Origin: an uncultured Porphyromonadaceae bacterium | GTDB taxonomy: Bacteria; Bacteroidota; Bacteroidia; Bacteroidales; Muribaculaceae | Assembly: GCA_947175425.1 (NCBI GenBank) | Contig: CAMWMR010000011.1 | Location: forward strand, 1 to 64,000 | Length of the DNA stretch: 64,000 bases | Direction: 5' to 3' | Shown here: in pieces, positions 26,711-41,518 of the stretch | Position numbering within the stretch: position 1 is the first letter of the stretch | Layout: each line of letters opens with the position of its first letter | Made by a program: the position numbers and the translations under genes | Notes under the pieces: generated by a model | Databases searched by the model: none | Told to the model about the DNA's origin: nothing | The model's input: the letters and a program-made list of their open reading frames with translations, nothing else

Positions 26711-26744
26711 AAGGAGCCCCGGCGAATTTTCACCGGGGCTCCTT
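26711..26744. terminator. Bidirectional terminator between convergent genes
   Basis: A perfect 12-bp stem (AAGGAGCCCCGG / CCGGGGCTCCTT) with A-rich left and T-rich right flanks. It serves the esterase (+) and the end of the amidase operon (-). Confidence 0.85.
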
Positions 26745-26762: not shown

Positions 26763-29201
26763 TTATTGAACGGCAATCCTCAGAGTATGAGCAGGCTTGT
26801 CTTGGCAGGATATGCGCAGTAAGTATATTCCTGCGGGATGTCCTGCAACGCTAATCTTGTTGGTGTTTTCGGCAAGGGCTACGCATGCGCCGGCGGCATT
26901 GATAAGCTCGAGACGGTTGATTGTTCCGGGAGCTTTAACGGTAACAATGTCGGAGGCGGGATTTGGTGTTGCTTCGTACATTGCGTTGTCGGCGGGAGTG
27001 ATTGCAACAGCACCGCTGCCGTTGATGCGGCGGGTTATGTTGTCGATGCTGAAGCTTCCCTGCTGAGTGACGGGGCTGTTTGTCTGTACAAGTCGAATGC
27101 CTGTCAGGAGGTAGGGGAATCCTTCCTCAAGCATGTCGAGCGTTTCTTCCTTGTACTGCCATCCACGGTAATCCATAAGGCCGAAGGAAACATATTTCAC
27201 ATCGGTACCCGAGGTGAGTATGGCGAGAACTTCGTGTGAGCTGAAGTCGCCGTTGATGTGGATTCCGAGTTTGTCGCCGTGATTGAAAATTTTATCGTTT
27301 GCGAGATAGTTCCAAGTAATGTCGCCGCCACGGAAGTCGGTAAACTTATAAGTAAGTTTAGTGCCGTAGCTGCCGAGCAGGTGTTCGGTTGAGCGAATAG
27401 CACCGGGCAGAGTAGATCCAATGCCGGTGGTTTTTTCGGGGTCGTAAGCGAACATTACATCGGTGCCTTCAAAAGTTTCGATAACTTCGGCATCCCCGGC
27501 TTCGGTGGAAACATCGGTAGCGGTGAACTTCATGACAATGTCTTCGCCCATGGGCAGGTTCTCGCGGTCGCGGAGTTCCGAGCCGAGAGTGAGCGAGTAG
27601 GTTTCGCCGGGAGTGAGCTTGCTTGCGAGAGCATAAATAATGTTTCCGAATCCGTTTCCAAGACGGTTGTAGAGTGTGCTGCGCGAGCTAACGGTAACGG
27701 CAGCGCCCTTTGAGTCGGTAATGGCGATGTTTTTGTAAATTGTGGTTGCGTCGACAGCATTATCGAAACGGAATTCGATTTTAGGCGAGTCGAAGTGAAC
27801 TTCGCCACCGTCGACAGGGAAACATTCGGTCATTTCCAGACGGTTTCGGTTTTGAGTTGTGAACTCGAAGGAGAGTTCATTCTCAAGGTTGGGATTCTGA
27901 CAGTAGGGGTCGGGATGACGAGCCTCTTTTCCGACGGTCACTTTATAGTGCGTATCGCGGGCAAGCGACAGATTGGGAGTGAAAGTTGCTTTGTGGTAAG
28001 AATCGGAATAGGTGAAGTATCCTTCAACGTCGGGTTCTATTTTGAAAGCTTTTTCAAAGGATTCCACATCGATGTCGGTGTTGAACTCGAAAGAAATGAC
28101 GTTGGAGCAGCTTATAGGCTCGTCGTTTTCCACTTTGGGGCCGTAAGCAACTATTTCGAGGGGGAATTCGCGTTTGAGGCTCATGCCGAACTCGGTGTAA
28201 GTAACTTCGTTGGCGGTAACAGTTACGTCCTGTTCCTCGGTGTAATAGTTATTTGTGGAAGTGCGTACTTTGTAGTTTCCGGGAGCAACGTTACGGAAAA
28301 CGAACACGCCGTTGTACATGTTGTCGGTGGTGCGTTTCTGCACGAGGTTTCCGTTCATGTCGAGCAGTTCAACGTAAGCGCCGTTCAGGGGAGCGAGTTT
28401 ATCGCGGCCGAGCATGGAGAAGTTGGCCGGCATAACGTATTCGCGGAGGTTGTGGTTGTCGTATACCACACCGGCAACGTTTCCGTTCACAAAGCGATCC
28501 TCGGTGTTATAGAATTCCATGATACCGCGAACAAAGTGCCATGCTTCGAGCCACCACATGTCGTCGTTCATGAGTCGGTGAGCTTCGGGGCGGTATTCGT
28601 GCATGGAGCCTTCCGAGAGAAGTCCCACAACGTAGAGAGTGCGCAGAACTCCCAGTCCGCCCGACCACATGTTTTTATAGAAAGTGAGGTCGCCGGCAAT
28701 ATACTCGGTGTTGCGCGACCATACGGGGAGCTGATTGGAGTGGAGCTGTTGCCAAATTATTTTGCTGAGAGTAATGTTTTCTTCGTAACGGGGTACGCCC
28801 TCGGTTTCCTCACGGTATAGCATGAGGGGGTAGTTCACATTCTCGCCGGCGTTTGAGTGGATTGAGAAGAACAGGTCCACATCCAGTTTGTTAGCTTCGG
28901 CAGCAATACCCGAGAGGGAGCGGTCGTCGGCCTGGGTGTTCTTGGTGCGCGACAGATAGGGTGTTGCACCGAGTGAGTCGAGGATGTGGTACATGTGCAA
29001 TCCTTTGTAGAGGTTACTTTTGGATTCCCAATAACCGTTTGAGTCGTTGCTGGCAAAAGGATAAATGCGGATTGGGCGGTCGTCGGAAGTGTATCCGCCG
29101 TGTCCGGGATTTATGTATATTTTGAGGTCGCTCATTTTTTTCGCCTCGGCCGCGCCTACTGCAGCTGCAAAGGCAAGCAGAAAAATAAGAATTCGTTTCA
29201 T
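26763..29201 (-). CDS. Secreted N-acetylmuramoyl-L-alanine amidase, copy 1, with T9SS-type tail
   Basis: Zinc amidase of the Amidase_3 family, cleaving the bond between MurNAc and the stem peptide. A signal peptide (1-20) is followed at once by the catalytic domain: zinc ligands in NPGHGG (H34), YWESKSN (E59) and FSIHSNA (H115), and the catalytic Glu in LLSEGSMHEY (E197). Then come a carboxypeptidase-regulatory-like beta domain (about 240-330), two Ig-like (Big_5-type) domains and another beta module. The final ~70 residues (ATPNPASDIVTV...AGIYLLRI) resemble a T9SS type A sorting domain. At 812 aa it is far larger than housekeeping AmiC-type enzymes. It is last in the five-gene operon and overlaps the propeller gene by 4 bases. 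Confidence 0.85.
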   Translation of the reverse strand: MKRILIFLLAFAAAVGAAEAKKMSDLKIYINPGHGGYTSDDRPIRIYPFASNDSNGYWESKSNLYKGLHMYHILDSLGATPYLSRTKNTQADDRSLSGIAAEANKLDVDLFFSIHSNAGENVNYPLMLYREETEGVPRYEENITLSKIIWQQLHSNQLPVWSRNTEYIAGDLTFYKNMWSGGLGVLRTLYVVGLLSEGSMHEYRPEAHRLMNDDMWWLEAWHFVRGIMEFYNTEDRFVNGNVAGVVYDNHNLREYVMPANFSMLGRDKLAPLNGAYVELLDMNGNLVQKRTTDNMYNGVFVFRNVAPGNYKVRTSTNNYYTEEQDVTVTANEVTYTEFGMSLKREFPLEIVAYGPKVENDEPISCSNVISFEFNTDIDVESFEKAFKIEPDVEGYFTYSDSYHKATFTPNLSLARDTHYKVTVGKEARHPDPYCQNPNLENELSFEFTTQNRNRLEMTECFPVDGGEVHFDSPKIEFRFDNAVDATTIYKNIAITDSKGAAVTVSSRSTLYNRLGNGFGNIIYALASKLTPGETYSLTLGSELRDRENLPMGEDIVMKFTATDVSTEAGDAEVIETFEGTDVMFAYDPEKTTGIGSTLPGAIRSTEHLLGSYGTKLTYKFTDFRGGDITWNYLANDKIFNHGDKLGIHINGDFSSHEVLAILTSGTDVKYVSFGLMDYRGWQYKEETLDMLEEGFPYLLTGIRLVQTNSPVTQQGSFSIDNITRRINGSGAVAITPADNAMYEATPNPASDIVTVKAPGTINRLELINAAGACVALAENTNKISVAGHPAGIYLLRISCQDKPAHTLRIAVQ

Positions 29202-30025
29202 CGGTCGTTGAGGTTTAGAATGAACATGTTACCGTTAATGTCGGAGAAAATTACGGTACCGGTTTCGGAAGCCGTAGCCTCGCCCACGAGCATATCGTCG
29301 TCGGTTAGCTGAGTTGTTTCGCCGGTACGTGTATCTACCATAACGAGTTTTGAGCTGAGGACAACATAACCGTCGTCGTAAGTAACCACGGCAATTATTT
29401 TGTCTTTTCCGGCCCAGGAAGTGAAATCGCCCTTGGGAAGCAGTTTTTTTGCGTTGTTACCGTCGGCATCACAAACGAATACTCCCTGGAAGGGTTCGGA
29501 GAATAGTAGCTGACCTTCGGACGAGAGGGTAGCCCACAGGTATGAGTGACTGTCGGCAACCGGGCGGATTCGTTTTTCCACACCGTTTCGACGGACGCAA
29601 ATGTCCTGATAGTCGGCCACGGCATAGTCGGCAGCTCCGAGCGCGGCAATGTTTACATGTTCGCGGGTAGCCTTGGCGAGCTGACGGTGTTTTCCGCTTT
29701 GTATGTTGAAGGCACGGACATCGCGGTAAAGCAGGCCGTCGCGCATTTCGGCAGTGCGGTAGTAGATTGTACGGCTGTCGGTAGAGAACACGGGTTCGAA
29801 GCCGGCAGAAGCAGCTTCGTCGATTTCGCTGACAGTGCCGTCGGTCATTGAGTATGCCTTAAGTCCGCGGTGATTGTCGGAAGAAAAGAGCAAAGTTTTT
29901 CCGTCGGGACTGAGCACGGGATGATGAGCGCCTGCAGGCAGAGCGAGTGGCGCATAAGGCAAGCCCGCGTAAGCCCCGAAAGCGAGGCTTAACGCGGCTG
30001 CTATAGAAAGCAGGTGTTTTTTCAT
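29198..30025 (-). CDS. Exported TolB-like beta-propeller protein, copy 1
   Basis: 275 aa with a signal peptide (about 1-20) and repeated WD40/TolB-like blades, for example HHPVLSPDGKTLLFSSD and EPVFSTDSRTIYYRT. There are no catalytic residues, so a binding or scaffold role is likely. Unlike its enzyme neighbours it lacks a C-terminal sorting domain and ends directly after a blade, so it may remain periplasmic. It overlaps the amidase copy 1 start by 4 bases, implying equal synthesis. It is clearly similar to the copy 2 protein at 32446-33348. Confidence 0.75.
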   Translation of the reverse strand: MKKHLLSIAAALSLAFGAYAGLPYAPLALPAGAHHPVLSPDGKTLLFSSDNHRGLKAYSMTDGTVSEIDEAASAGFEPVFSTDSRTIYYRTAEMRDGLLYRDVRAFNIQSGKHRQLAKATREHVNIAALGAADYAVADYQDICVRRNGVEKRIRPVADSHSYLWATLSSEGQLLFSEPFQGVFVCDADGNNAKKLLPKGDFTSWAGKDKIIAVVTYDDGYVVLSSKLVMVDTRTGETTQLTDDDMLVGEATASETGTVIFSDINGNMFILNLNDR

Positions 30026-30030
30026 GTTTA

Positions 30031-32433
30031 TTAATGAACAATTATTACGCGGTGAGCGCTTGTACCGTTTGCATTGGTAACAAGGGCAATGTAGTGTCCG
30101 TTGGCAATAGCGGAAACATTGAGGACGTTACCTCCGGCTTTGGCAACTTTGCGGCCGTCCATGTCGATGAGTTCCACCGATTCGATTATGCCGTCGGCAT
30201 TTGCAACGAGATATTCGGAAGCCGGGTTGGGGGAGATTGTAACGGTGTTGTCGGTAACGAGCGAAGAAACGCCTGCACCTTCGGCAATTTCAATGCGGTC
30301 GATTCCGAATGTACCGCTTCCGCTGATTTGAGATTTGTTCTGCACAAGTTTCACGCCTTCGAAAGTGTACTCGTCGGTACCTTCGAGAGCTTCGAGCGAA
30401 ACAACAAGATGTTTCCAGCCGAGGTAGTCGAGGTCGGCTACGTGTACGTAGCTTTGGGCGATGGGCGAGCTGAAGAGGAGGTAGAGCGAGTTGCCGGAGA
30501 GGTCGCCGTTGACGTGAACGGAGATTTTTTGATCGCGGGTAACTTTTGCTGGTTCTTCGGCCGAGTTGTCCCAAAGGATTTCGCCACCTTCGTTTCCGTC
30601 GAACGCATAGGTGTAGTTAACGGCTGTGCCGAACAGAGCGGTTTTGGTGTCGAGGGCAACCGACTGGGAAGTTACGTTTTGCGACTGTTCTTCGTTATAA
30701 GCGAAAACGGTTGCATCGGTCATTTCATCGATAACGAGACCGGCTTCGTGAGCAGATGCGTCGCATGCGGTGAAGAAGAGTTCAACTCCGTTCTGGAGAG
30801 TGAGGCCGTCGCGGTCGGCGAAATCTTTGGAAATTTCGAGGCGGTAGGTCTGTCCGGGAACGAGGTCTTTCAGCACGGGAATCTTAACGAAACCGAAGGG
30901 GCTTGTGCTTGAGTCGAAACGAGCGTTGCGGGTGTCGAGAGTTACGGCTGCGCCTGTTTCATCGTAGAGTTTGATTTGTTTGAGAACCTGGCTTGTTGCG
31001 GGACGTTTGTCGCTGCGCACTTCGATTGTGGGCTTGGTGTAGTGTACCATTGCATCCTGAGCGGGGGATATTGCAATCACCTGCAGGAAGTTGCGGTCGG
31101 TAGTCTTGAACTGCAACGAGAAAGGTTCTTCCATTTTGGTACCGCCTCCGTGAGCAGCTTCGGTTGAAATAGTAACCGTGTAGAGCGTGTTGGTAGCGTA
31201 GGGAGCGGTGGGGGTGAAAATCATGCGATAGTTGAGGTCCTCCCAGGTGAAAGTACCTTCGGCAGCGGGTTCAATGGAGAAAGCTTTTTCGGTAAGCTCG
31301 GTGTCCATGTCCCAGTTGAAGTCAATAACAATGGGAGCGTTGCAAAGAACTGCTTCCTCGCCTTCTTTCCATTCGGGGCTTGCGGCGAGCACCTGCGGGG
31401 GAGTGTTGCGAACTTTGTTGAGCTTGAAGTTTGCGTATGTCACTTCGTCGGCCTTTACCTCAACGGTTCTTTCGTCGGCGTAGTGGGATTCCACGTTGGT
31501 CTTGATAGTGTAGGTGCCGGGTTCAAGGTTCTTGAAGGCATATACACCGTTGGTATTGACGGTTTCGGTAGTGTAGGTGTCGATGAGTGTTCCGGAAGCG
31601 TCGTAGAGTTCAACCTTGGCAGTCTGGATTGTTGCCAGGAGGTCGTCGCCATACATGATGTAGCTGCCCGAGCGGGGGAAGCGAACGTCGTTGAGACGAC
31701 CGAAAATGTGACCCTTGTCGGTGCCTTCCACCTGAAAATATTCATCGATTGCGCGGCGGAAGTGATATGCCTCGAGCCAACAGAAATCCTTGTTCATAAG
31801 GCGGTATGCCTCGGGGATATAATCGTGGAACGAGCCTTCTGAGAGCATGCCTGTTACAGTCAGGCCGCGGAGTACGCCCAGGCCGGAAGTTCCCCAGCTT
31901 TTATAGAAGGACCAGTCGCCGCGGAGGTTGAGTGCGGTAGATGTCCACCAGGTAACTTCGTTTTCGAGGAGGTGCTTGTTGAGGATTCCTGCCACAACTT
32001 TGTCCTCGGGTTTAACGGGCTGGTCGTCGTATCCGCGATAAAGCATGAGGGGGAAGTTTCGGCGAGCCGAAGTACCTGTTGCGTTGGAGTGTATTGAGAA
32101 GAAAATGTCGGCCTGGGATTTGTTTGCAAGGCTTACGATTGTGCTCAAAGGCAGGTCGTCGGCGGTTGTGTTTGTAACACGCGACATTTCCACGGTGTAT
32201 CCTTTTGCCTGGAGCTGTTCGCGGAGTGCGAGGCCTTTGTCGAGGTTCGAGTTCGATTCCCAGTAACCGTTGGGGTCGCCCGATTTGTAGGGTTCGATTA
32301 CCACGTTACGGTCGTCGCTGTCGTGTCCGCCGTGTCCGGGATTAATGTAAACTTTGAGGTCGGAAGCGTTACCTGCCAAGGCGCCGATAGAGCCCGCGCC
32401 GGCAATCAGGAGGCTTAAAATTTGCTTTTTCAT
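30031..32433 (-). CDS. Secreted N-acetylmuramoyl-L-alanine amidase, copy 2, with T9SS-type tail
   Basis: Paralogue of the copy 1 amidase with the same layout: signal peptide, Amidase_3 domain (H34, E59, H115 at identical positions; catalytic Glu in MLSEGSFHDY, E199), a regulatory-like beta domain, Ig-like domains, and a sorting-type tail beginning ISPNPASEYLVAN. Identity is high in the catalytic domain and lower in the Ig-like region by eye, suggesting an old duplication with diverged binding modules. It lies 12 bases after propeller copy 2 and 5 bases before propeller copy 1. Both copies look catalytically complete. Confidence 0.85.
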   Translation of the reverse strand: MKKQILSLLIAGAGSIGALAGNASDLKVYINPGHGGHDSDDRNVVIEPYKSGDPNGYWESNSNLDKGLALREQLQAKGYTVEMSRVTNTTADDLPLSTIVSLANKSQADIFFSIHSNATGTSARRNFPLMLYRGYDDQPVKPEDKVVAGILNKHLLENEVTWWTSTALNLRGDWSFYKSWGTSGLGVLRGLTVTGMLSEGSFHDYIPEAYRLMNKDFCWLEAYHFRRAIDEYFQVEGTDKGHIFGRLNDVRFPRSGSYIMYGDDLLATIQTAKVELYDASGTLIDTYTTETVNTNGVYAFKNLEPGTYTIKTNVESHYADERTVEVKADEVTYANFKLNKVRNTPPQVLAASPEWKEGEEAVLCNAPIVIDFNWDMDTELTEKAFSIEPAAEGTFTWEDLNYRMIFTPTAPYATNTLYTVTISTEAAHGGGTKMEEPFSLQFKTTDRNFLQVIAISPAQDAMVHYTKPTIEVRSDKRPATSQVLKQIKLYDETGAAVTLDTRNARFDSSTSPFGFVKIPVLKDLVPGQTYRLEISKDFADRDGLTLQNGVELFFTACDASAHEAGLVIDEMTDATVFAYNEEQSQNVTSQSVALDTKTALFGTAVNYTYAFDGNEGGEILWDNSAEEPAKVTRDQKISVHVNGDLSGNSLYLLFSSPIAQSYVHVADLDYLGWKHLVVSLEALEGTDEYTFEGVKLVQNKSQISGSGTFGIDRIEIAEGAGVSSLVTDNTVTISPNPASEYLVANADGIIESVELIDMDGRKVAKAGGNVLNVSAIANGHYIALVTNANGTSAHRVIIVH

Positions 32434-32445
32434 TGTCAGAGCGGA

Positions 32446-33348
32446 TTAACGGTTAATAAGATTAACAGACATTTCAAAGAGACGGCCGTCGATAGTGTTG
32501 TACACAATCTTGCCGGCTTCAAATGAAGCTGTAGGGAACATTGTCATGCTTTCGGGACGGGTAATTTCCTGAATTTCGGAACCGTCGGCTTTGAGCATTA
32601 CTATTTGCGAAGAGCTGTACTGGTGTCCGTCGTCGGTGGCTTTCATGGCAACAACGGTGTTGTTTCCGAACCACACGGGAGCTTCGTAGTTGCCGAGGTC
32701 GGCAATAATATTTCCGTTGAGGTCGCAAATCACAATTCCGTGACCTGCGGCAACGAACATCACCTTAGTACCGTCGGGCGAAAGCGATTCCCACAGGTAT
32801 CCTGCGTAGGATTCAACGGGGGAGTATGCTTTTTCAACACCGTTTACAGTTATATATAAGGAGGAGCCTTCGGTGCGCACACCTGTTTGCACTTTTTTGC
32901 CGAAAGCTTTGCGTACGCCGTTGAATCGGGTTTCCATGCCACCTTTTGTGAGTTCGGGACGCTGGATGAAGCGGGCCGATTCACCGATTTTGGAGTTCGC
33001 TCCCTGTGCAATGTTGTAGCTGTGGAGCTGGCGCATTTGGCGGCCGTTGCTGTCGGGTGTCTGCGAAATGTAAATCACTTCGGCTCCGTCGGGGGTAAAA
33101 CGAGCGTCGAAACCGGCACGTTCCAGGTCGCATACAAGCGAAGTTGCGCCCGATTCAAAGTCGTAGATGCGCAGGTTGGAGTAGTCGGCGTTGGAGAACA
33201 GCAGTTTGTTTCCGTCGGGGCTTAGAACGGGGTTGTACAGATTGCTCTGTACACCGGCCAGAATAGGAGTGGCTTTGCCGGTTTCGGCAATGCGTGCACT
33301 CATGCCCATGCCTGAGGCGAGAGCTGCAAGTAACAGAAGTCGTTTCAT
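32446..33348 (-). CDS. Exported TolB-like beta-propeller protein, copy 2
   Basis: 300 aa with an N-terminal signal and propeller blades such as YNPVLSPDGNKLLFSNAD, DARFTPDGAEVIYIS and WESLSPDGTKVMFVAAGHG. It is paralogous to the copy 1 protein but has an insert around residues 110-160 (RPELTKGGMETRFNGVRKAFGKK). There is no sorting domain and no catalytic motif. It is placed between the glycosidase gene (19-base gap) and amidase copy 2 (12-base gap), so each amidase is preceded by its own propeller. Confidence 0.75.
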   Translation of the reverse strand: MKRLLLLAALASGMGMSARIAETGKATPILAGVQSNLYNPVLSPDGNKLLFSNADYSNLRIYDFESGATSLVCDLERAGFDARFTPDGAEVIYISQTPDSNGRQMRQLHSYNIAQGANSKIGESARFIQRPELTKGGMETRFNGVRKAFGKKVQTGVRTEGSSLYITVNGVEKAYSPVESYAGYLWESLSPDGTKVMFVAAGHGIVICDLNGNIIADLGNYEAPVWFGNNTVVAMKATDDGHQYSSSQIVMLKADGSEIQEITRPESMTMFPTASFEAGKIVYNTIDGRLFEMSVNLINR

Positions 33349-33367
33349 AAGGATAATTATGGTTTAG

Positions 33368-35908
33368 TTATTTTACAATCAGTATGGCGGCGCTTGCACC
33401 TTCGTTGGAGTTAATGTTCACCACGTAGGCACCGGGAGTTGCGGGAGCGGGGAGAACAACTGTTTCGGCGTCCATTCCGGCGTATTTTGCAACGAGAGCT
33501 CCTGCGGGGGAGTATATGTCGATGCTTTGAATGTCGGTGGCATGAACGGTGAAGCATGTTCCTGCGGCTACAGGGTTGGGAGTTATTGAAACTTTGCCTT
33601 TTTCGGCAGTGGCGGTGTTGAGTTCAACCGACGACTGGTAGTTGTCGTAACGGGCGTAGAGGCGATGCAGCTGTACGGTGCCTTGTCCGGAGCCTGCTTC
33701 GGGGTAAAGGCGGATGTTGGAGATACTTACGGGGTAGGTAGATATTTTGGAAGTTTCGCCAACGAGGCTAATGGGTATTTCCACATTGTGTTTGGTAGCG
33801 GCGGCGAAGTTAGGCTCGGTTTCGTGCTTGATTGTTTTGTAGCTTGTACGAGTAGCTTCGGGAGTGTGGATATCGGCCGAAATGTGGGTGAGGTTTACAG
33901 CGGGTTCAAATTCAAAGAAGATGTTATCGGGGAGGCTGTAGAAAACTGTGCCTGTAGCGATAGTGATGTAGGGAGTTTTAGATGAGCCGTATGTGAAAGT
34001 TACAACACCTTCGGGCGAGAGGCTTACGTTAGAAACACCGGTTCCTTTGGCAGTCCATTCGCTAAGGTTTTCGTGAGCCATTTCGGCGGCATTTGCAATT
34101 TCTACGGTAACTTCGGTGCTTTCGGTTATATCGCCGATTTTGGCTGTAATGGTAGTTTTACCTTCTTTGAGGCCGCGGAGAACGCCTTGTGCGTCGATGC
34201 TTACAATGTCGGTGTCGTCGATAATCCATTCAAAGTCGGCGGGGTTGTAGGAGTAAACTTTGTCGCCGATAGTGGCGGATATTTCGATGGGATATTCGCG
34301 AGTGCCGTCGATGAGCAGAGGTTTCACTGCCATAACCGGCTGAGTGGCTGCAACGGTGAGTTCGATGTCGATGCTGACTTCGCCGACAGTTGCTGTGAGT
34401 TTGCCTGTTACGGCATTTTTGCCGGCGGTGAAGGAATTTCCGTCGCAAGTGCCGAGTTCGGGGTCGCAGGAGAGTGTGAAGTCGCGGAAATCGTAGCTGA
34501 TAACGGCGCCGTATTTGTTATATGCAATTACAGTGGGCGAGAAAGTTCCGTAAGCGGGAGCTGTGAGGGACATTTCTTCGAACGCGAGGGCTGCAACTTC
34601 CGAAGCTTCGGGAGTGTCTTCGGGAGCGGTGTTATATACCAGCCAGCCGTTTGCCACGGCGCGGGGAGTACCTTCGGTTGTGCGGTTTTCAATGCGGTCG
34701 GTAATAAACATTTCGGCGGAACCTCCTGCGTCGAAGTTAGCCATGTTGGAGCATCCGAGCCAACGGGCGAATTCGCACATTTTTGCAGTGTTGCATCCTG
34801 CCGATGTTCCGTATACGGGGTCGGTTGATTTGTCGATAACAACAATGTAGAGGGTTTTTCCGTCGGCCGAGCAGCCGTAACCGGTGCGGGAGTAAACCTG
34901 CGAGTTGTAGGTTTCGTTTGAGTTGTGTGCTGTGAGTTCGCCGTTACGCATAACGAGCGCGTTACCGCCTACAGCCTGCTCAACGAGGGGAGTGATTTCG
35001 TTTTCGCTTCCGGGGTTGTAGGTCCAGGAGTATTTCATTACGAGTTTGTCGCCTTCGGCCAAAGCTGCCATAACTTCGCGGTACGGGCCGCGGCCTACAA
35101 GGGCGAGGTCGTGGTTTCCGAGCATTCCGTTACCTGCATCGGTGCGCACTTCCTTGACGATGAATTCAATGTCGCGGCCGCTGTTCCAGTCTTCGCCTTC
35201 GGCAAAGTCAAGAATAACTTCGGTAGCATCTCCCGGGGCGTCGAATTCATATTTGCCGCTTACAATTTTAATGGGCATAAATTCGCGAGCCGAGCCATAG
35301 TAGCGGTTATACATGCAAAGCTCGTCGGTGTGTATGCCTTTGTTGCACTGGTGTACTTCGAGAGTGCCGATTTTACTGTTTGTAACGGCAATTGAAGAAG
35401 TACAGTAGTCGATATATGCTGTTTTGTCGTAGGACATTGAAACTACGCCGGTACGCATAGTGCCGCCGTCCCACTGGTCGCGGTTCTGGTTCGATTCGGT
35501 AACAATAACGCCGTTACGCACGCTTGCGTTACGGGTGGTTCCGGTGTATGTTTTTTCTTCGGGCTGAGTTGCCACCACCCAGAAGTTGGCGTTGGCACCG
35601 GCAACGGCACGGTGTCCTTCCGACGACTGGCGTTTTGCCGCATTTACAAGGAGTTCGGTTCCTTTGGCCGACTCGTTGGCAACAGTTGTTTCAATGCGGT
35701 TGTAGGGATTGTTCAAATCCACTTTCACCACGTTGATATTAAGGGGATAATCGGGCAGTCGATAGCGCAGATGTGTAATGCCGGGGCCGATTTGCCGGTC
35801 GATTTTACATTCCACTTCGTAATCCTTGCCTTCGAGGTTTACGGTTTCGGCCATGGAGCTAAAGCTGAAAAACGCCACAGCTCCGCAAGCGAGTAAAAGT
35901 TTATTCAT
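33368..35908 (-). CDS. Secreted phosphodiester glycosidase (NAGPA domain) with Ig-like modules and T9SS-type tail
   Basis: The NAGPA family is named for the human enzyme that removes GlcNAc from GlcNAc-1-phosphodiester. Signatures are RTGYGCSADGKTLYIVVID (around residue 345), CEFARWLGCSNMANFDAGGSAEMF (around 380-400) and TPRAVANGWLVYN. A signal peptide (about 1-20) precedes, and a large N-terminal domain of about 300 residues belongs to the same fold region. Bacterial Ig-like (Big_2) repeats lie at about 440-610, then a beta module and a sorting-type tail starting ITPNPVAAGTCF. It is the first gene of the operon. Wall polymers or glycans linked by sugar-1-phosphodiesters are plausible targets; the actual substrate is unknown. 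Confidence 0.82.
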   Translation of the reverse strand: MNKLLLACGAVAFFSFSSMAETVNLEGKDYEVECKIDRQIGPGITHLRYRLPDYPLNINVVKVDLNNPYNRIETTVANESAKGTELLVNAAKRQSSEGHRAVAGANANFWVVATQPEEKTYTGTTRNASVRNGVIVTESNQNRDQWDGGTMRTGVVSMSYDKTAYIDYCTSSIAVTNSKIGTLEVHQCNKGIHTDELCMYNRYYGSAREFMPIKIVSGKYEFDAPGDATEVILDFAEGEDWNSGRDIEFIVKEVRTDAGNGMLGNHDLALVGRGPYREVMAALAEGDKLVMKYSWTYNPGSENEITPLVEQAVGGNALVMRNGELTAHNSNETYNSQVYSRTGYGCSADGKTLYIVVIDKSTDPVYGTSAGCNTAKMCEFARWLGCSNMANFDAGGSAEMFITDRIENRTTEGTPRAVANGWLVYNTAPEDTPEASEVAALAFEEMSLTAPAYGTFSPTVIAYNKYGAVISYDFRDFTLSCDPELGTCDGNSFTAGKNAVTGKLTATVGEVSIDIELTVAATQPVMAVKPLLIDGTREYPIEISATIGDKVYSYNPADFEWIIDDTDIVSIDAQGVLRGLKEGKTTITAKIGDITESTEVTVEIANAAEMAHENLSEWTAKGTGVSNVSLSPEGVVTFTYGSSKTPYITIATGTVFYSLPDNIFFEFEPAVNLTHISADIHTPEATRTSYKTIKHETEPNFAAATKHNVEIPISLVGETSKISTYPVSISNIRLYPEAGSGQGTVQLHRLYARYDNYQSSVELNTATAEKGKVSITPNPVAAGTCFTVHATDIQSIDIYSPAGALVAKYAGMDAETVVLPAPATPGAYVVNINSNEGASAAILIVK

Positions 35909-36188: not shown

Positions 36189-39100
36189 ATGAACAAGTCT
36201 ACTTATCGTCTTTCCGGCCTTGTTGCAGGAGCGGCATTCGCTCTCTGTTTTGGACTGGGAACCGGAAGTGCCTCGGCACAGACATTTATGCACGAAGGTC
36301 TTGTGTATAAAGCATCCGGAAACAAACTCACTCTACAGGCTGCTACCGTAAATCCTGAGAACGGTACTGCACCCGGAGAATACTCGGGTTCGTATGTAAT
36401 TCCCGAGGAAATACCTTACAATGGCAAAACCTATATTGTAACCAGTGTAGGCACTGTATTCAAGTCCAATGCCAAGCTTGTATCGCTTGAAATGCCCTCT
36501 ACAATCACATCGCTCAGCCGCGGTGCTTTTGCCGATTGTACAGGTCTGGAATCGGTGAAACTGCCTTCAGCAATGACAGCTCTTCCCAGCGATGGTTTTG
36601 CCCGATGCAGTGCGCTTAAGGAAATTTCCATTCCGGGCACAATTGCCAAGGCCGACGGCGGAAATACTTTCAAGGATTGTACCTCGTTGGAAAAAATTAC
36701 CTTTGAGGAAGGTGCGACTCCGCTGCTTATCAAGCTTGCTTTGTTCACCGAGCTTCCCTCGAGCCTTAAGGAAGTGTATATCTATCGCGACCTCGACAAC
36801 TCTACTGTTGCCATGGCCGATAAACCTTTCCGTGCAAGCACAAGTCTTGAAAAAGTTGTTTTGGGCGATAAGGTAACAGCTCTTCCCGCCAGCTTCTTCG
36901 AAAACTGTACTGCTCTTAAGGACGTTACAATCGGTGCCGGTCTCGAAACAATAGGAACTTCGGCTCTTTCAAACACCGCTATCACCGAAATCGTACTTCC
37001 CGACGCTCTCAAAACCATTACCGCATCGGCTTTTGCAGGCGACAAGAGTCTTGTTAAAGTTACTATGGGTAAACTGGTGAAGACAATCGAAAGTATGGCT
37101 TTCCGTAACACCGGTGTTACAGAAATCAACTTCTCCGATTCTCTTACCACTATCGGCGACATGGCTTTCCAGAACTCAGGCCTCGCAGGTACTCTCACAC
37201 TTCCCGAAGCGCTCAAGAAACTCGGCTCGCAGGCGTTTGCCGCCAACACCGGTCTTACAGAAGTTGTTTTGGGCGACTCGCTTGCAACTGTAGGCGACGG
37301 TCCTTTCATGGCTTGTCCCGAAATTTCCAAGTATACCGTTGCTGCCGACAACCGTTATTTTGCCAATGAAGCAGCCGGCCGTTATGTAACCGACAAAGAC
37401 GGCAAAGTACTTTACTTCTACGCTCCCAAAGCCGCAGGCAACGCTCTCGCACTCGGTGTAACCGAAATCAAGCCTTATGCATGCTACGGTGCCACCGCTC
37501 TTGAAAATGTTGATATTCCTTCCTGCGCCACATTCGGTGACTACGCTTTTGCAAGCTCAGGCATCAAATCTCTTACCGTTAAAGGTTCGGTTGGCCGTTA
37601 TGTTGCACAGAACTGTCCCGAACTCACTGCAGTGAATATTCAGACAACCGAAGTTCCCATCGGTATTGTTGCCGGTTGCGAAAAACTTACATCTGTAACA
37701 CTTCCCGAAGCTGTGACAGTTGTTAAATCGGAAGCTTTCAAAGGCACCTCTGCTCTCAAAGAACTTAACCTCGGCAGCTGCCTCGCAATTATTGAATCCG
37801 GCGCGTTCGACAACGCCGCAGTTGAAACTCTCAGCGTAGGTTCCACTTATCCTGCCGTAATGCCCGACGGTGTATTCACCGAAGCACATGCAAACATCAC
37901 CGTAAAAGTTCCCGTCGACCTCGTTGACGCTTACAAAGCCGCTCCCGGCTGGAGCATGCTCAAGATTGCCGGCGATGCCAACATCGTAGCCGGCGGCGCC
38001 GACATGGGTATGCCCGCAGGTCTTTACTACGCAGGTGAAGACGGAATGCTCCACTGTGTATATTCCGACGGCGAAAGCGACACCTACGACGTTGGCGGCG
38101 TTCCCCACACTTTCCAGCTTGTAGAATACAGCAACCGTATTTACGGTGCCTGCGCCGGTGAAAAATTCGTTTACTCGGCTACCGGTGCTGTCGACGGCGA
38201 CGGTAAACTGTTCTATATCTCCAAAGTTGGCGGCAATATTTTCCAGGCTGTCGTTCTCGACAACACCGGCAATAACGCCTATATGGACCCCTTCGGCCTC
38301 TACATCTATGGCGAAGACCTCTATGTAAACGACCGTAACGTTTGTCTGCGCAAAATTCCCGCAAGCGCAATTTCACTTCCCCAGGACTATCCCTCTTGGA
38401 TGGAAAACAACTGGATGGCTTTCTACAACACCGAATGGACCTATGGCTGTATCAAAGCCGGTTTTGCAATCACTACTGCTGCCGATACTCAGGAACCTCT
38501 CTACTGGCTCGGCATGAAGTATAACGGCTATGGTATTTTCCGTTTCCGCGAAGGTAACATCGGTACCGGCGCAGGCGACCTCGCCGGCCCCCGTCCCACC
38601 GACCGTTCTCTGTTCACTCAGTTCACCCCCATTATCACCACTTTCAATGTTGACGAACCCAACGGACACCTCTATATGTATGTAGTACGCATGGGCGACC
38701 TCAATGTGGAAAATCCTGTTAAGTGCGGTCTCTACCGTGTAAACATCGCCGATGTTGAAGCCAACTCCGACGCTTCTTCGTTCTGGGATTACAACCCCGT
38801 ACTCATCGACGGTGCTCCCGTAATCTACGAAGGCAACACCGAGTACGTTGGTATTCCTCAGCTCGCTATCGACAGCAAGGGCGAATACATGTACTGGTGC
38901 TACCGTACACCTTCGGAAGAAAGCATTGAAACAATCGAAGGCTATACCGTTGCACAGCAGGAATCCAACAACCGTTTCCACTGGGCCGACAAGTACGACG
39001 CCACCAACCCCCGTCATCAGGACGGTATCAAGCGTATCAAACTCGGCGAGGCCAATCCCGAAGTTGAAACAGTTGTTCCCGGTGTTCGCGGTTACGGCGT

Positions 39101-39368
39101 TGTAGCTGTAAACTACGAAGGCTCCACACGTCCCGAAGGCGGTGTTTCCGCAATTGTAGGCGCTCAGGCCAAACTCGCTCACATTGCCAACGGTACAGTA
39201 GTTGCCGATACCGACCTCCGTCTTGAAGTTTACACAACAGCCGGTCTGCTTGTTGCAGTTGAAAATCTTGCTGCAGGCGAAACTTTCGCAGCCGACCTCG
39301 AAGCCGGTGTTTACGTAGCTGTTGCCAATGCTGCAGGTGAAACTCAGGTTCTCAAATTCGTGAAATAA
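36189..39368 (+). CDS. BspA-like leucine-rich-repeat surface protein with T9SS-type tail
   Basis: 1059 aa. After a signal peptide (about 1-30, ending ASAQ) there are many BspA-type LRR_5 units to about residue 600, with the recurring pattern AFxxCTxLxxVxLPxxLxxIxxxAF. A distinct domain of about 400 residues follows (FVYSATGAVDGDGKLFYISK, RFREGNIGTGAGDL), which looks beta-propeller-like but is not assigned. The end (EAGVYVAVANAAGETQVLKFVK) resembles a T9SS type A sorting domain. BspA-like proteins bind host matrix or other bacteria; that role is inferred here. It is divergent from the hydrolase operon and monocistronic. Confidence 0.8.
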   Translation: MNKSTYRLSGLVAGAAFALCFGLGTGSASAQTFMHEGLVYKASGNKLTLQAATVNPENGTAPGEYSGSYVIPEEIPYNGKTYIVTSVGTVFKSNAKLVSLEMPSTITSLSRGAFADCTGLESVKLPSAMTALPSDGFARCSALKEISIPGTIAKADGGNTFKDCTSLEKITFEEGATPLLIKLALFTELPSSLKEVYIYRDLDNSTVAMADKPFRASTSLEKVVLGDKVTALPASFFENCTALKDVTIGAGLETIGTSALSNTAITEIVLPDALKTITASAFAGDKSLVKVTMGKLVKTIESMAFRNTGVTEINFSDSLTTIGDMAFQNSGLAGTLTLPEALKKLGSQAFAANTGLTEVVLGDSLATVGDGPFMACPEISKYTVAADNRYFANEAAGRYVTDKDGKVLYFYAPKAAGNALALGVTEIKPYACYGATALENVDIPSCATFGDYAFASSGIKSLTVKGSVGRYVAQNCPELTAVNIQTTEVPIGIVAGCEKLTSVTLPEAVTVVKSEAFKGTSALKELNLGSCLAIIESGAFDNAAVETLSVGSTYPAVMPDGVFTEAHANITVKVPVDLVDAYKAAPGWSMLKIAGDANIVAGGADMGMPAGLYYAGEDGMLHCVYSDGESDTYDVGGVPHTFQLVEYSNRIYGACAGEKFVYSATGAVDGDGKLFYISKVGGNIFQAVVLDNTGNNAYMDPFGLYIYGEDLYVNDRNVCLRKIPASAISLPQDYPSWMENNWMAFYNTEWTYGCIKAGFAITTAADTQEPLYWLGMKYNGYGIFRFREGNIGTGAGDLAGPRPTDRSLFTQFTPIITTFNVDEPNGHLYMYVVRMGDLNVENPVKCGLYRVNIADVEANSDASSFWDYNPVLIDGAPVIYEGNTEYVGIPQLAIDSKGEYMYWCYRTPSEESIETIEGYTVAQQESNNRFHWADKYDATNPRHQDGIKRIKLGEANPEVETVVPGVRGYGVVAVNYEGSTRPEGGVSAIVGAQAKLAHIANGTVVADTDLRLEVYTTAGLLVAVENLAAGETFAADLEAGVYVAVANAAGETQVLKFVK

Positions 39369-39508: not shown

Positions 39509-41077
39509 ATGTATTCTATGAAAATAGCATTACCACCTCGTCGCGACGGTGCTCCTGCGGGTAATTTGGAACTATCGTCGGATCAATCGCTTCTTATTGT
39601 CGGTGCCAACGGTGCCGGTAAAACCCGTTTCACTCATAATATAATGGAGAGTATGGGCGAGACGGCCTATCCGTTGTCGGCGCTCGATGCGCTGTACGGA
39701 CGTCGGCGAGGCGGAGAACTTCCTCCGGTTCTTGCCCGGAGGCTGGCGGGTGGAGCAGCGGCTTTGCCGGCCGATGCTACAGTACTCGAGCTTTTTCTTT
39801 GGCAGCTTATGCACGATGAAATGTTGAATCTCATAGGCTATAAACTTGCGTTGGCCGATAAAAAGCAGGCACAGCTAAAGCGTACGCGGCTTGATGCGGT
39901 TATCGAACTGTGGCAGGATGTTTTTCCGGGAAACCGCGTACTTATTGACAGTGGTAAAATTGTTTTTGCACGCGGCATGGATGCCTCTACATATTCCTCG
40001 GTTCGGCTTTCCGACGGCGAACGTGCCGTGTTGTACTATGCCGCAGCTGTAAGTTATGCACCGCACAATTCGGTTATTTTTGTGGACAGCCCCGAAATAT
40101 TTTTGCACCCGTCGCTCACTGCATCGCTGTGGAACCGGCTGGAGGCTTCGCGTCCCGATTGCTGTTTCTGCTATACTACTCACGACACCGAGTTTACTTC
40201 GTCGCGCAACGGAGCTCCTGTAATATGGGTGCGCGATTACGATTCGGCTGCCAAGGCTTGGGATTACGATATTCTTCCGCCGCAAACCGGAATTTCCAAC
40301 GAGTTGTATATAACCTTGATAGGTGCCCGCAAGCCTGTTTTGTTCATTGAGGGCGACAGCGAACGAAGCATCGATGCAAAACTTTATCCGCTTATTTTCC
40401 CCGATTTTACCGTTCGCTCGCTCGGCAGTTGCAATAAGGTTATCGAAGCCACGCGCACTTTCAACGATTTGTCGGGCTTCCATAAAATGGATTCTTTCGG
40501 CATTGTGGATCGCGACCGCCGTGACGATGCCGAAGTGGCATATCTTCGCCGCAAGCGCATAATGGTTCCCGATGTCGCCGAAATTGAGAATATGCTTTTG
40601 CTTGAGGATGTTGTAAAGGCAGTTGCCGCATCCACCGGGCACGATGGCGAGCGTATTTTTTCGCGTGTGCGAAAAACTATAATCAATCTTTTTGCCGGCG
40701 ATTTGCATCAGCAGGCGCTCCAGCATACACGCCACAGGGTCAAGCGAACGATAGAGTACCGTGTCGATGCCCGTTTCACCGATATCGGCAACATGGAAGA
40801 GCACCTTGGCGGATTGCTTGGCGAAATTAATCCGCGAAAGATTTACGAGGCGTTCTGCCGCGAGTTCCGCGCTTACGTAGAGGCTCGCGATTATAATGCC
40901 ATTCTGCGTGTGTTCAATCAAAAATCCATGCTTTCGTCGTGCAATGTGGCCAATATGTGCGGCTTTAAGAATAAGGAAAAATATATAGAAGCCGTGGTGA
41001 GGCTTTTGCGTCAAAACCATACCACGGCTCAAAGTATACGTGCGGCAGTGCGCCGCTGCCTGTCGTTTACAGATTGA
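39509..41077 (+). CDS. AAA ATPase-DUF4435 fusion protein (PARIS/OLD-like defence candidate)
   Basis: 522 aa, cytoplasmic. The N-terminal ABC/SMC-type ATPase domain has a Walker A GANGAGKT (32-39), a signature-like LSDGERAVLYY (about 167-177) and a Walker B VIFVDSPEIFLHPS (about 189-202). The C-terminal DUF4435 domain starts near 270 with VLFIEGDSERS (E281) and GIVDRDRRDD (about 331-340), an acidic pattern resembling TOPRIM. PARIS anti-phage systems consist of an AAA ATPase (AriA) and a DUF4435 TOPRIM protein (AriB), and single-chain fusions are known to me. The gene is alone on its strand; its end overlaps the restored bcp gene. Domain call is good; the defence role is inferred. Confidence 0.7.
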   Translation: MYSMKIALPPRRDGAPAGNLELSSDQSLLIVGANGAGKTRFTHNIMESMGETAYPLSALDALYGRRRGGELPPVLARRLAGGAAALPADATVLELFLWQLMHDEMLNLIGYKLALADKKQAQLKRTRLDAVIELWQDVFPGNRVLIDSGKIVFARGMDASTYSSVRLSDGERAVLYYAAAVSYAPHNSVIFVDSPEIFLHPSLTASLWNRLEASRPDCCFCYTTHDTEFTSSRNGAPVIWVRDYDSAAKAWDYDILPPQTGISNELYITLIGARKPVLFIEGDSERSIDAKLYPLIFPDFTVRSLGSCNKVIEATRTFNDLSGFHKMDSFGIVDRDRRDDAEVAYLRRKRIMVPDVAEIENMLLLEDVVKAVAASTGHDGERIFSRVRKTIINLFAGDLHQQALQHTRHRVKRTIEYRVDARFTDIGNMEEHLGGLLGEINPRKIYEAFCREFRAYVEARDYNAILRVFNQKSMLSSCNVANMCGFKNKEKYIEAVVRLLRQNHTTAQSIRAAVRRCLSFTD

Positions 41078-41518
41078 GCAGCTGCTCGGCGTGAATCTTT
41101 GTTTTTATCTGTTTCGGGCCAAGAATATTGGTAATAGTGCCGTCGGGCGCTATTATGAATGTTGTGCGCAAAGTACCCATGTATTTGCGTCCGTACATGC
41201 TTTTTCGGCCCATACACCCATTTGTTCAACGAGTTTGTGTTCCGTATCGGCAATAAGCGGAAACGGCAGTTGATTTTTCTCGGCGAATTTGATGTGTGAG
41301 GCTGCCGGGTCCACGCTTACGCCTATAACCTGATAGCCGGCGGCGAGGAGTTGACTGTAGCCGTCGCGCAGGCTGCAGGCCTGTGCGGTGCAGCCCGAGG
41401 TATTGTCCTTGGGGTAGAAATAGAGTGCTATTTTTTTGCCGGGAAATTGGCTTAGACGCACTTCGTTGCCGTGGGCGTCGGTCCCGAGAAAGTCGGGAAC
41501 TTTATCTCCGATATTCAT
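41067..41518 (-). pseudogene. bcp: Thiol peroxidase (Bcp/peroxiredoxin Q), broken by a one-base deletion
   Basis: The intact first part (MNIGDKVPDF, peroxidatic C43 and resolving C48 in SGCTAQAC, VIGVSVDP) is a normal atypical 2-Cys peroxiredoxin that reduces alkyl and hydrogen peroxides. After GVWAEK the frame shifts and stops at 41153 (121 aa). Adding one base to the T5 run at 41201-41205 (A5 on the coding strand) restores SMYGRKYMGTLRTTFIIAPDGT and a tail ending HAEQLLNL at 41067, giving about 150 aa, the family length. The deletion may be genuine, a sequencing error in a homopolymer, or corrected by slippage. The restored gene overlaps the convergent ATPase gene by 11 bases. Confidence 0.85.

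Follow-up and report, generated by a model that had tools for sequence, protein, structure and literature searches.

In the window analysed here, i.e., the whole stretch of 64,000 nucleotides, five open reading frames lie on the minus strand in the 5' to 3' order NAGPA, propeller, amidase, propeller, amidase (Table 1). An earlier interpretation that was made from the letters alone (hereafter the sequence-only reading) had described a tightly spaced five-gene operon, and open reading frames, strand, and gaps (19, 12, 5, and -4 bp in operon order) were as described. An intrinsic-terminator-like hairpin, which begins 19 bp past the last stop, ends the operon, and a search for such minus-strand hairpins inside the operon found none. 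Signal peptides were assigned to all five proteins by eye. The five genes form a genuine operon for exported enzymes that cut cell walls.

Table 1. Positions of the operon genes, their mapped domains, and neighbouring features in the window
Feature	Position	Strand	Description	Basis
Gene 1	33368..35908	(-)	NAGPA-type phosphodiester glycosidase, 846 aa	Pfam/NCBIfam profiles
Gene 1, NAGPA domain	35047-34634
Gene 1, T9SS-type tail	33586-33392
Gene 2, PROP1	32446..33348	(-)	propeller 1, 300 aa, six-bladed TolB-like, signal peptide, without T9SS tail	Pfam, AlphaFold2
Gene 3, AMI1	30031..32433	(-)	amidase 1, 800 aa	Pfam/NCBIfam profiles
AMI1, Amidase_3 domain	32352-31792
AMI1, T9SS tail	30237-30040
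Gene 4, PROP2	29198..30025	(-)	propeller 2, 275 aa, signal peptide, without T9SS tail
Gene 5, AMI2	26763..29201	(-)	amidase 2, 812 aa; 4-bp overlap with gene 4
AMI2, Amidase_3 domain	from 29120
AMI2, T9SS tail	26969-26769
Intrinsic-terminator-like hairpin	26711..26744	(-)	15 bp stem, 10 G-C pairs, T-rich tail; ends operon
BspA-type surface protein	36189-39368		divergent from operon
AAA_21 + DUF4435 ATPase	39509-41077		522 aa
AhpC/TSA peroxiredoxin ORF	41153-41518		121 aa

Enzymes and propellers of the operon

Both amidases (AMI) contain an Amidase_3 domain (PF01520; 1.5e-15 and 1.4e-7) with scores of 58.1 and 32.1 bits that exceed the curated cut-off of 27. The zinc ligands H34, E59, and H115 and the catalytic E199 of AMI1 are invariant across 55 family members, in agreement with the complete zinc sites that had been noted from the sequence. 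The amidases also bear SdrD_B, CarboxypepD_reg, and Big_5 domains according to Pfam, with SdrD_B-like and Big_5 domains in AMI1 and Big_5 in AMI2 too. Solved structures that match the amidase part include PDB entries of AmiC2, CwlV, CwlD:GerS, LytH:ActH, and AmiB:EnvC. Gene 1 matches the NAGPA family (PF09992) at 2.5e-16 and 60.8 bits, above the curated cut-off of 25, and additionally has a Big_2 domain.

The two propellers (PROP) both matched PD40 in Pfam, and no specific Pfam or NCBIfam family for them emerged from the profile searches; PROP2 is 28-31% identical to PROP1. The AlphaFold2 model of PROP1 (pLDDT 94.2, pTM 0.90) has an N-terminal helix at residues 2-15 and a strand pattern that reads as six blades, and its best solved-structure match is TolB (E 3.8e-10, TM 0.54). 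We rejected an assignment to TolB proper on account of the TIGR02800 score (34.9 bits as compared to a cut-off of 343) and the amidase context. Phage proteins were likewise rejected, as there was no PHROG match.

The neighbouring BspA-type leucine-rich-repeat surface protein has a weak T9SS tail match (16.6-21.6 bits). The architecture of the ATPase beyond it recalls defence-associated ATPases, and the peroxiredoxin ORF stops at position 107 of the 124-position profile and is possibly frameshifted or truncated.

Conservation of the gene order and of the propeller-amidase pair

The sequence-only reading had staked its operon on an order that is kept outside this strain, and the order NAGPA-(NAGPA)-PROP-AMI-PROP-AMI recurs in nine other genomes (loci L077-L082, L095, L138, and L084, where NAGPA is cut by the contig edge). 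A cluster limited to one strain is rejected by its occurrence in these genomes. Background synteny was rejected as the cause of the kept order because the flanks differ: only three of the 67 flanking ORFs of the nine five-gene loci match window ORFs, namely a truncated NAGPA of the cluster, a partial match of 31%, and a tRNA synthetase gene that lies ~25 kb off in the window. Given its recurrence in nine other genomes with differing flanks, the five-gene order is far above chance. The shorter order NAGPA-PROP-AMI is found in other Bacteroidales families (L038, L039, L116, L117, L120, L121, and L131), and the window locus corresponds to this unit plus a second, duplicated PROP-AMI pair.

The core of the cluster is a two-gene propeller-amidase unit that is spread across Bacteroidota. 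In the genus of the window, 58 of 60 PROP genes are located directly upstream of a family amidase. The sequence-only reading, which took the propellers for possible substrate-binding or chaperone subunits, underrated them: they are no loose accessories. Among the 49 genomes of this genus, 13 have PROP and AMI, 33 have neither, three have only a lone amidase of ~900 aa, and none has PROP only. The genome of the window itself encodes five pairs: two belong to the window, and contigs C23, C25, and C29 carry a single pair apiece. In a phylum sample of 297 genomes across Bacteroidota, PROP was present in 47 genomes with 65 hits, 46 of which are followed on the same strand by AMI at a distance of 2-149 bp. 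A further 16 hits are without a family AMI downstream within 3 kb, and the gene order is reversed, by coordinates, in G644, G672, and G550. Amidase hits without a propeller are mostly short proteins (open frames of 330-380 aa). In an initial set of amidase relatives from further Bacteroidales families (loci L038-L045 and L047), each one with enough upstream sequence on its contig has a propeller gene immediately before it. Cultured hosts with adjacent PROP and AMI are Mariniphaga anaerophila DSM 26910 and Bacteroides salyersiae DSM 18765. Separately, contig C47 (L029:9119-11953) carries a 944-aa T9SS-type amidase relative that lacks a propeller and follows TonB-receptor and SusD genes; congeneric genomes without the propeller module also have lone amidases of about this size.

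Distances in the propeller and amidase trees, compared for 92 adjacent pairs and 17 fusions, are correlated with r = 0.871, as compared to 0.128 for the best of 500 permutations. Within 25 two-unit loci, the true pairing gave r = 0.886, and random within-locus swaps gave a mean of 0.476 and a maximum of 0.658. Correlation and swap result together show that the pair duplicated as a unit and that each propeller tracks its own amidase. One-to-one pairing, co-duplication, and co-evolution, together with fusions and the tail-less state of PROP, are shown by the sequences.

In the 17 full fusions, which derive mainly from rumen-type Muribaculaceae MAGs, the whole propeller and the amidase domain reside in one ORF of ~645 aa. 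Six loci (L122, L124, L125, L130, L137, and L147) encode a half-propeller that is fused N-terminally to the amidase and spans profile positions ~153-160 to 301; several of them are labelled Paludibacteraceae and some adjoin NAGPA. What the half-propellers retain is blades 4-6, and it is these blades that are best conserved among free propellers. Such a reduced propeller, possibly with four blades, would be an unusual structure. In every fusion, the propeller makes up the N-terminal part. Of the full fusions, L141 was scanned with Pfam and lacks a T9SS tail, and this version is predicted not to be exported via T9SS; the half-fusion scanned (L124, e.g., L124:9299-12379) retains the tail. The AlphaFold2 model of a natural 643-aa fusion (pLDDT 90.9, pTM 0.90) suggests, by its global pTM score, that the fused propeller and amidase domains adopt one defined arrangement, since undefined placement of domains of ~290 and ~320 residues would cap pTM near one half.

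Within the cluster, NAGPA is the optional member, and it is the propellers that accompany the amidases most constantly. Most PROP-AMI pairs lack NAGPA, and most of the six NAGPA genes in the genome of the window do not adjoin amidases. Both observations also weigh against a dedicated system for attack on Gram-positive walls, in which NAGPA would cut the GlcNAc-1-phosphate bond that links wall teichoic acid to MurNAc, after which the amidases would remove the peptides. The substrates of the NAGPA family, alpha-GlcNAc-1-phosphodiesters, are chemically similar to the linkage unit of teichoic acid, and such a system would fit surface export and the recurrent NAGPA-PROP-AMI order. Going by the NAGPA family name alone, a teichoic-acid or other sugar-phosphate target is plausible. 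However, the sole literature link is the co-occurrence of the NAGPA domain in wall-targeting Bacillota proteins (PMC12419801), beyond which no link from NAGPA to the wall was found in the open-access literature searched. We regard a system dedicated to Gram-positive walls as unlikely.

Predicted surface export and the probable role of the propeller

Sorting-type C-terminal tails had been proposed for all three enzymes from the sequence. In the HMM check with the type A sorting domain (TIGR04183, cut-off 23), this held for both amidases, with 54.1 bits for AMI1 and 42.3 bits for AMI2, and proved borderline for gene 1, whose putative T9SS tail scores 22.8 bits as protein and 27.1 bits in the genome DNA scan. 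Across homologs, T9SS tails are present in 50 of 55 AMI, 31 of 41 NAGPA, and 0 of 61 PROP. The PorU sortase (NF033707) was detected above cut-off in the genome of the window (G000) and in eight of nine other module-bearing genomes, including Bacteroides salyersiae and Mariniphaga anaerophila, the sole genome without a match being one of 1.9 Mb. In view of T9SS tails and PorU, the enzymes should reach the surface, and the tail-less free propeller is without a known route there. This asymmetry of tails between enzyme and propeller is the main mechanistic puzzle of the system. Independently thereof, the genome of L141 (G786) has five PorU-type sortase genes on contigs C35 and C17, four of which are close together on one contig, and more than one PorU-type match was also found in the genome of the window.

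Export bears directly on whether the operon serves ordinary self-remodelling, with amidases and glycosidase that recycle the cell's own wall or split it at division. In many bacteria, septum splitting is the work of Amidase_3 enzymes, and the tail-less full fusion would stay in the periplasm, where the own wall could be its substrate. Yet the T9SS tails direct the enzymes beyond the outer membrane, the genome of the window has other Amidase_3 genes (e.g., on contigs C43 and C23), both genes are missing in 33 of the 49 genus genomes, and PROP is present in only 47 of the 297 phylum genomes. We consider self-remodelling very unlikely. Essential division amidases in particular are disfavoured by the patchy distribution, with the module in 13 of 49 genus genomes. 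Taken together with surface export, this distribution makes action on foreign or shed peptidoglycan more likely than an essential part in division of the cell itself.

Our overall explanation, to which we give somewhat more credence than doubt, is a phylum-wide PROP-AMI module with the propeller as cofactor of a T9SS-exported amidase. PROP very probably binds the catalytic domain of its cognate AMI in the periplasm, and pairing, co-evolution, and fusions speak for such binding. It is reasonably probable that PROP acts as a dedicated cofactor in the folding, stabilisation, or activation of AMI. AMI would then be exported by T9SS to the cell surface, where it would strip stem peptides from peptidoglycan outside the own sacculus, i.e., from shed fragments or the walls of neighbours. 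In Bacteroidales, the module may have recruited surface glycan enzymes, namely NAGPA and in some loci a GHL10/DigH-type hydrolase, with stripped or decorated glycan as their presumed substrate. In 23 loci, a BadF/NagK-like sugar kinase of ~280 aa is encoded downstream of the amidase (e.g., L038:10990-11829), often followed by a golvesin-C protein of ~1000 aa. A link of this kinase to the salvage of peptidoglycan sugars is possible, at gaps well over 100 bp and with a weak profile match.

For the propeller, an activator or stabiliser is most likely the best reading, with a guard during periplasmic transit as its leading rival. Such an inhibitor or immunity-type guard would block the folded amidase in the periplasm, protect the own sacculus, and stay behind at T9SS export, comparable to an immunity protein or to the N-terminal inhibitory prodomain of gingipains. 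A guard would fit a protein that has a signal peptide and none of the T9SS tails carried by nearly all amidases, that is encoded immediately upstream of its enzyme in strict one-to-one manner and co-duplicates with it, and that is N-terminal whenever fused. On the other hand, the fusions put guard and enzyme in one chain, which in the L124 form retains the T9SS tail, and PROP is conserved across the phylum without the diversification of immunity genes. In addition, PMC8496864 reviews known Amidase_3 partners, and these activate their enzymes. A guard is a tentative alternative that we hold to be rather unlikely. The tail-less state of PROP fits an inhibitor or immunity role equally as an activator, and the fusions lean towards a permanent cofactor, although an N-terminal autoinhibitory prodomain would look alike. 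That exported amidases are either licensed, or held inactive in T9SS transit, by a dedicated periplasmic TolB-like propeller is a proposal for which we see the balance as even.

In an alternative closer to the sequence-only reading, the propeller would serve in substrate binding or targeting and keep peptidoglycan or a surface glycan in place for the amidase. Propellers of the TolB-like and WD40 types act as binding platforms in general, and carbohydrate-binding modules likewise join enzymes by fusion. However, one-to-one co-evolution is unneeded for a binding subunit, PROP without a T9SS tail would not follow the exported amidase, and the amidases already bear SdrD_B, CarboxypepD_reg, and Big_5 domains of their own, which makes a binding subunit distinctly unlikely.

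Comparison with known amidase-partner systems

The GerS protein of Clostridioides difficile allosterically activates CwlD and promotes its zinc binding (PMC8496864). CwlD:GerS likewise combines an Amidase_3 enzyme with a dedicated secreted partner, and its structure (PDB 7rag) matches the amidase part. GerS, however, comes from a spore former and is a lipoprotein whose fold is unrelated, whereas the partner here is a six-bladed propeller, adjacent or fused, and unlike CwlD, the amidase carries a T9SS export tail. EnvC, NlpD, ActS, and ActH license other Amidase_3 enzymes (PMC8496864). AmiA/B/C with EnvC/NlpD/ActS in E. coli and LytH with ActH in S. aureus thus also represent Amidase_3 under partner control, and PDB 8c0j and 7tj4 match the amidase part, but these partners are LytM-domain proteins or a membrane protein, not propellers. 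Among the Pfam/NCBIfam matches of PROP there was no family that would indicate homology to the LytM proteins EnvC/NlpD, to GerS, or to ActH.

The closest fold and profile for PROP is TolB of the Tol-Pal system. Unlike TolB, PROP adjoins amidases and, at the length of PROP1, is too short for the TolB N-terminal domain. Gene 1 shares its catalytic domain with the DUF2233/NAGPA proteins (solved structure 3ohg; human uncovering enzyme), as compared to which it adds Ig-like domains, a T9SS-type tail, and the operon link to PROP-AMI. DigH of E. coli is a periplasmic lipoprotein of the GHL10 family. It degrades the denuded glycan that amidases have stripped (PMC12288456). A GHL10 hydrolase, possibly a DigH-like enzyme for denuded glycan, is encoded between NAGPA and PROP in L040 (L040:5326-8160), and L126, L136, L144, and L148 have homologs that fall into the same BLAST cluster; unlike DigH, the L148 homolog has a near-cut-off T9SS tail. 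Such a GHL10/DigH-type gene is absent from the operon of the window.

The sequence-only reading knew of no described system with this five-gene set, and we, too, found none in the open-access literature searched, nor a propeller partner of an amidase. T9SS bacteria must pass folded wall-cutting enzymes through their own periplasm, and the literature searched gave no answer as to how the sacculus is spared during this export. With a dedicated propeller for each such amidase, this question becomes open to direct testing. If our proposal is true, a new fold class would join the few amidase regulators, there would be an answer to how a bacterium with T9SS moves such an enzyme across its own wall, and it would become easier to approach how Bacteroidota of the gut and the environment attack the walls of other bacteria or scavenge them. 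The enzyme families are each known, and the pairing of an exported amidase with a propeller is apparently undescribed. What is new here as compared to the known amidase-partner systems is the fold of the partner and the context of export.
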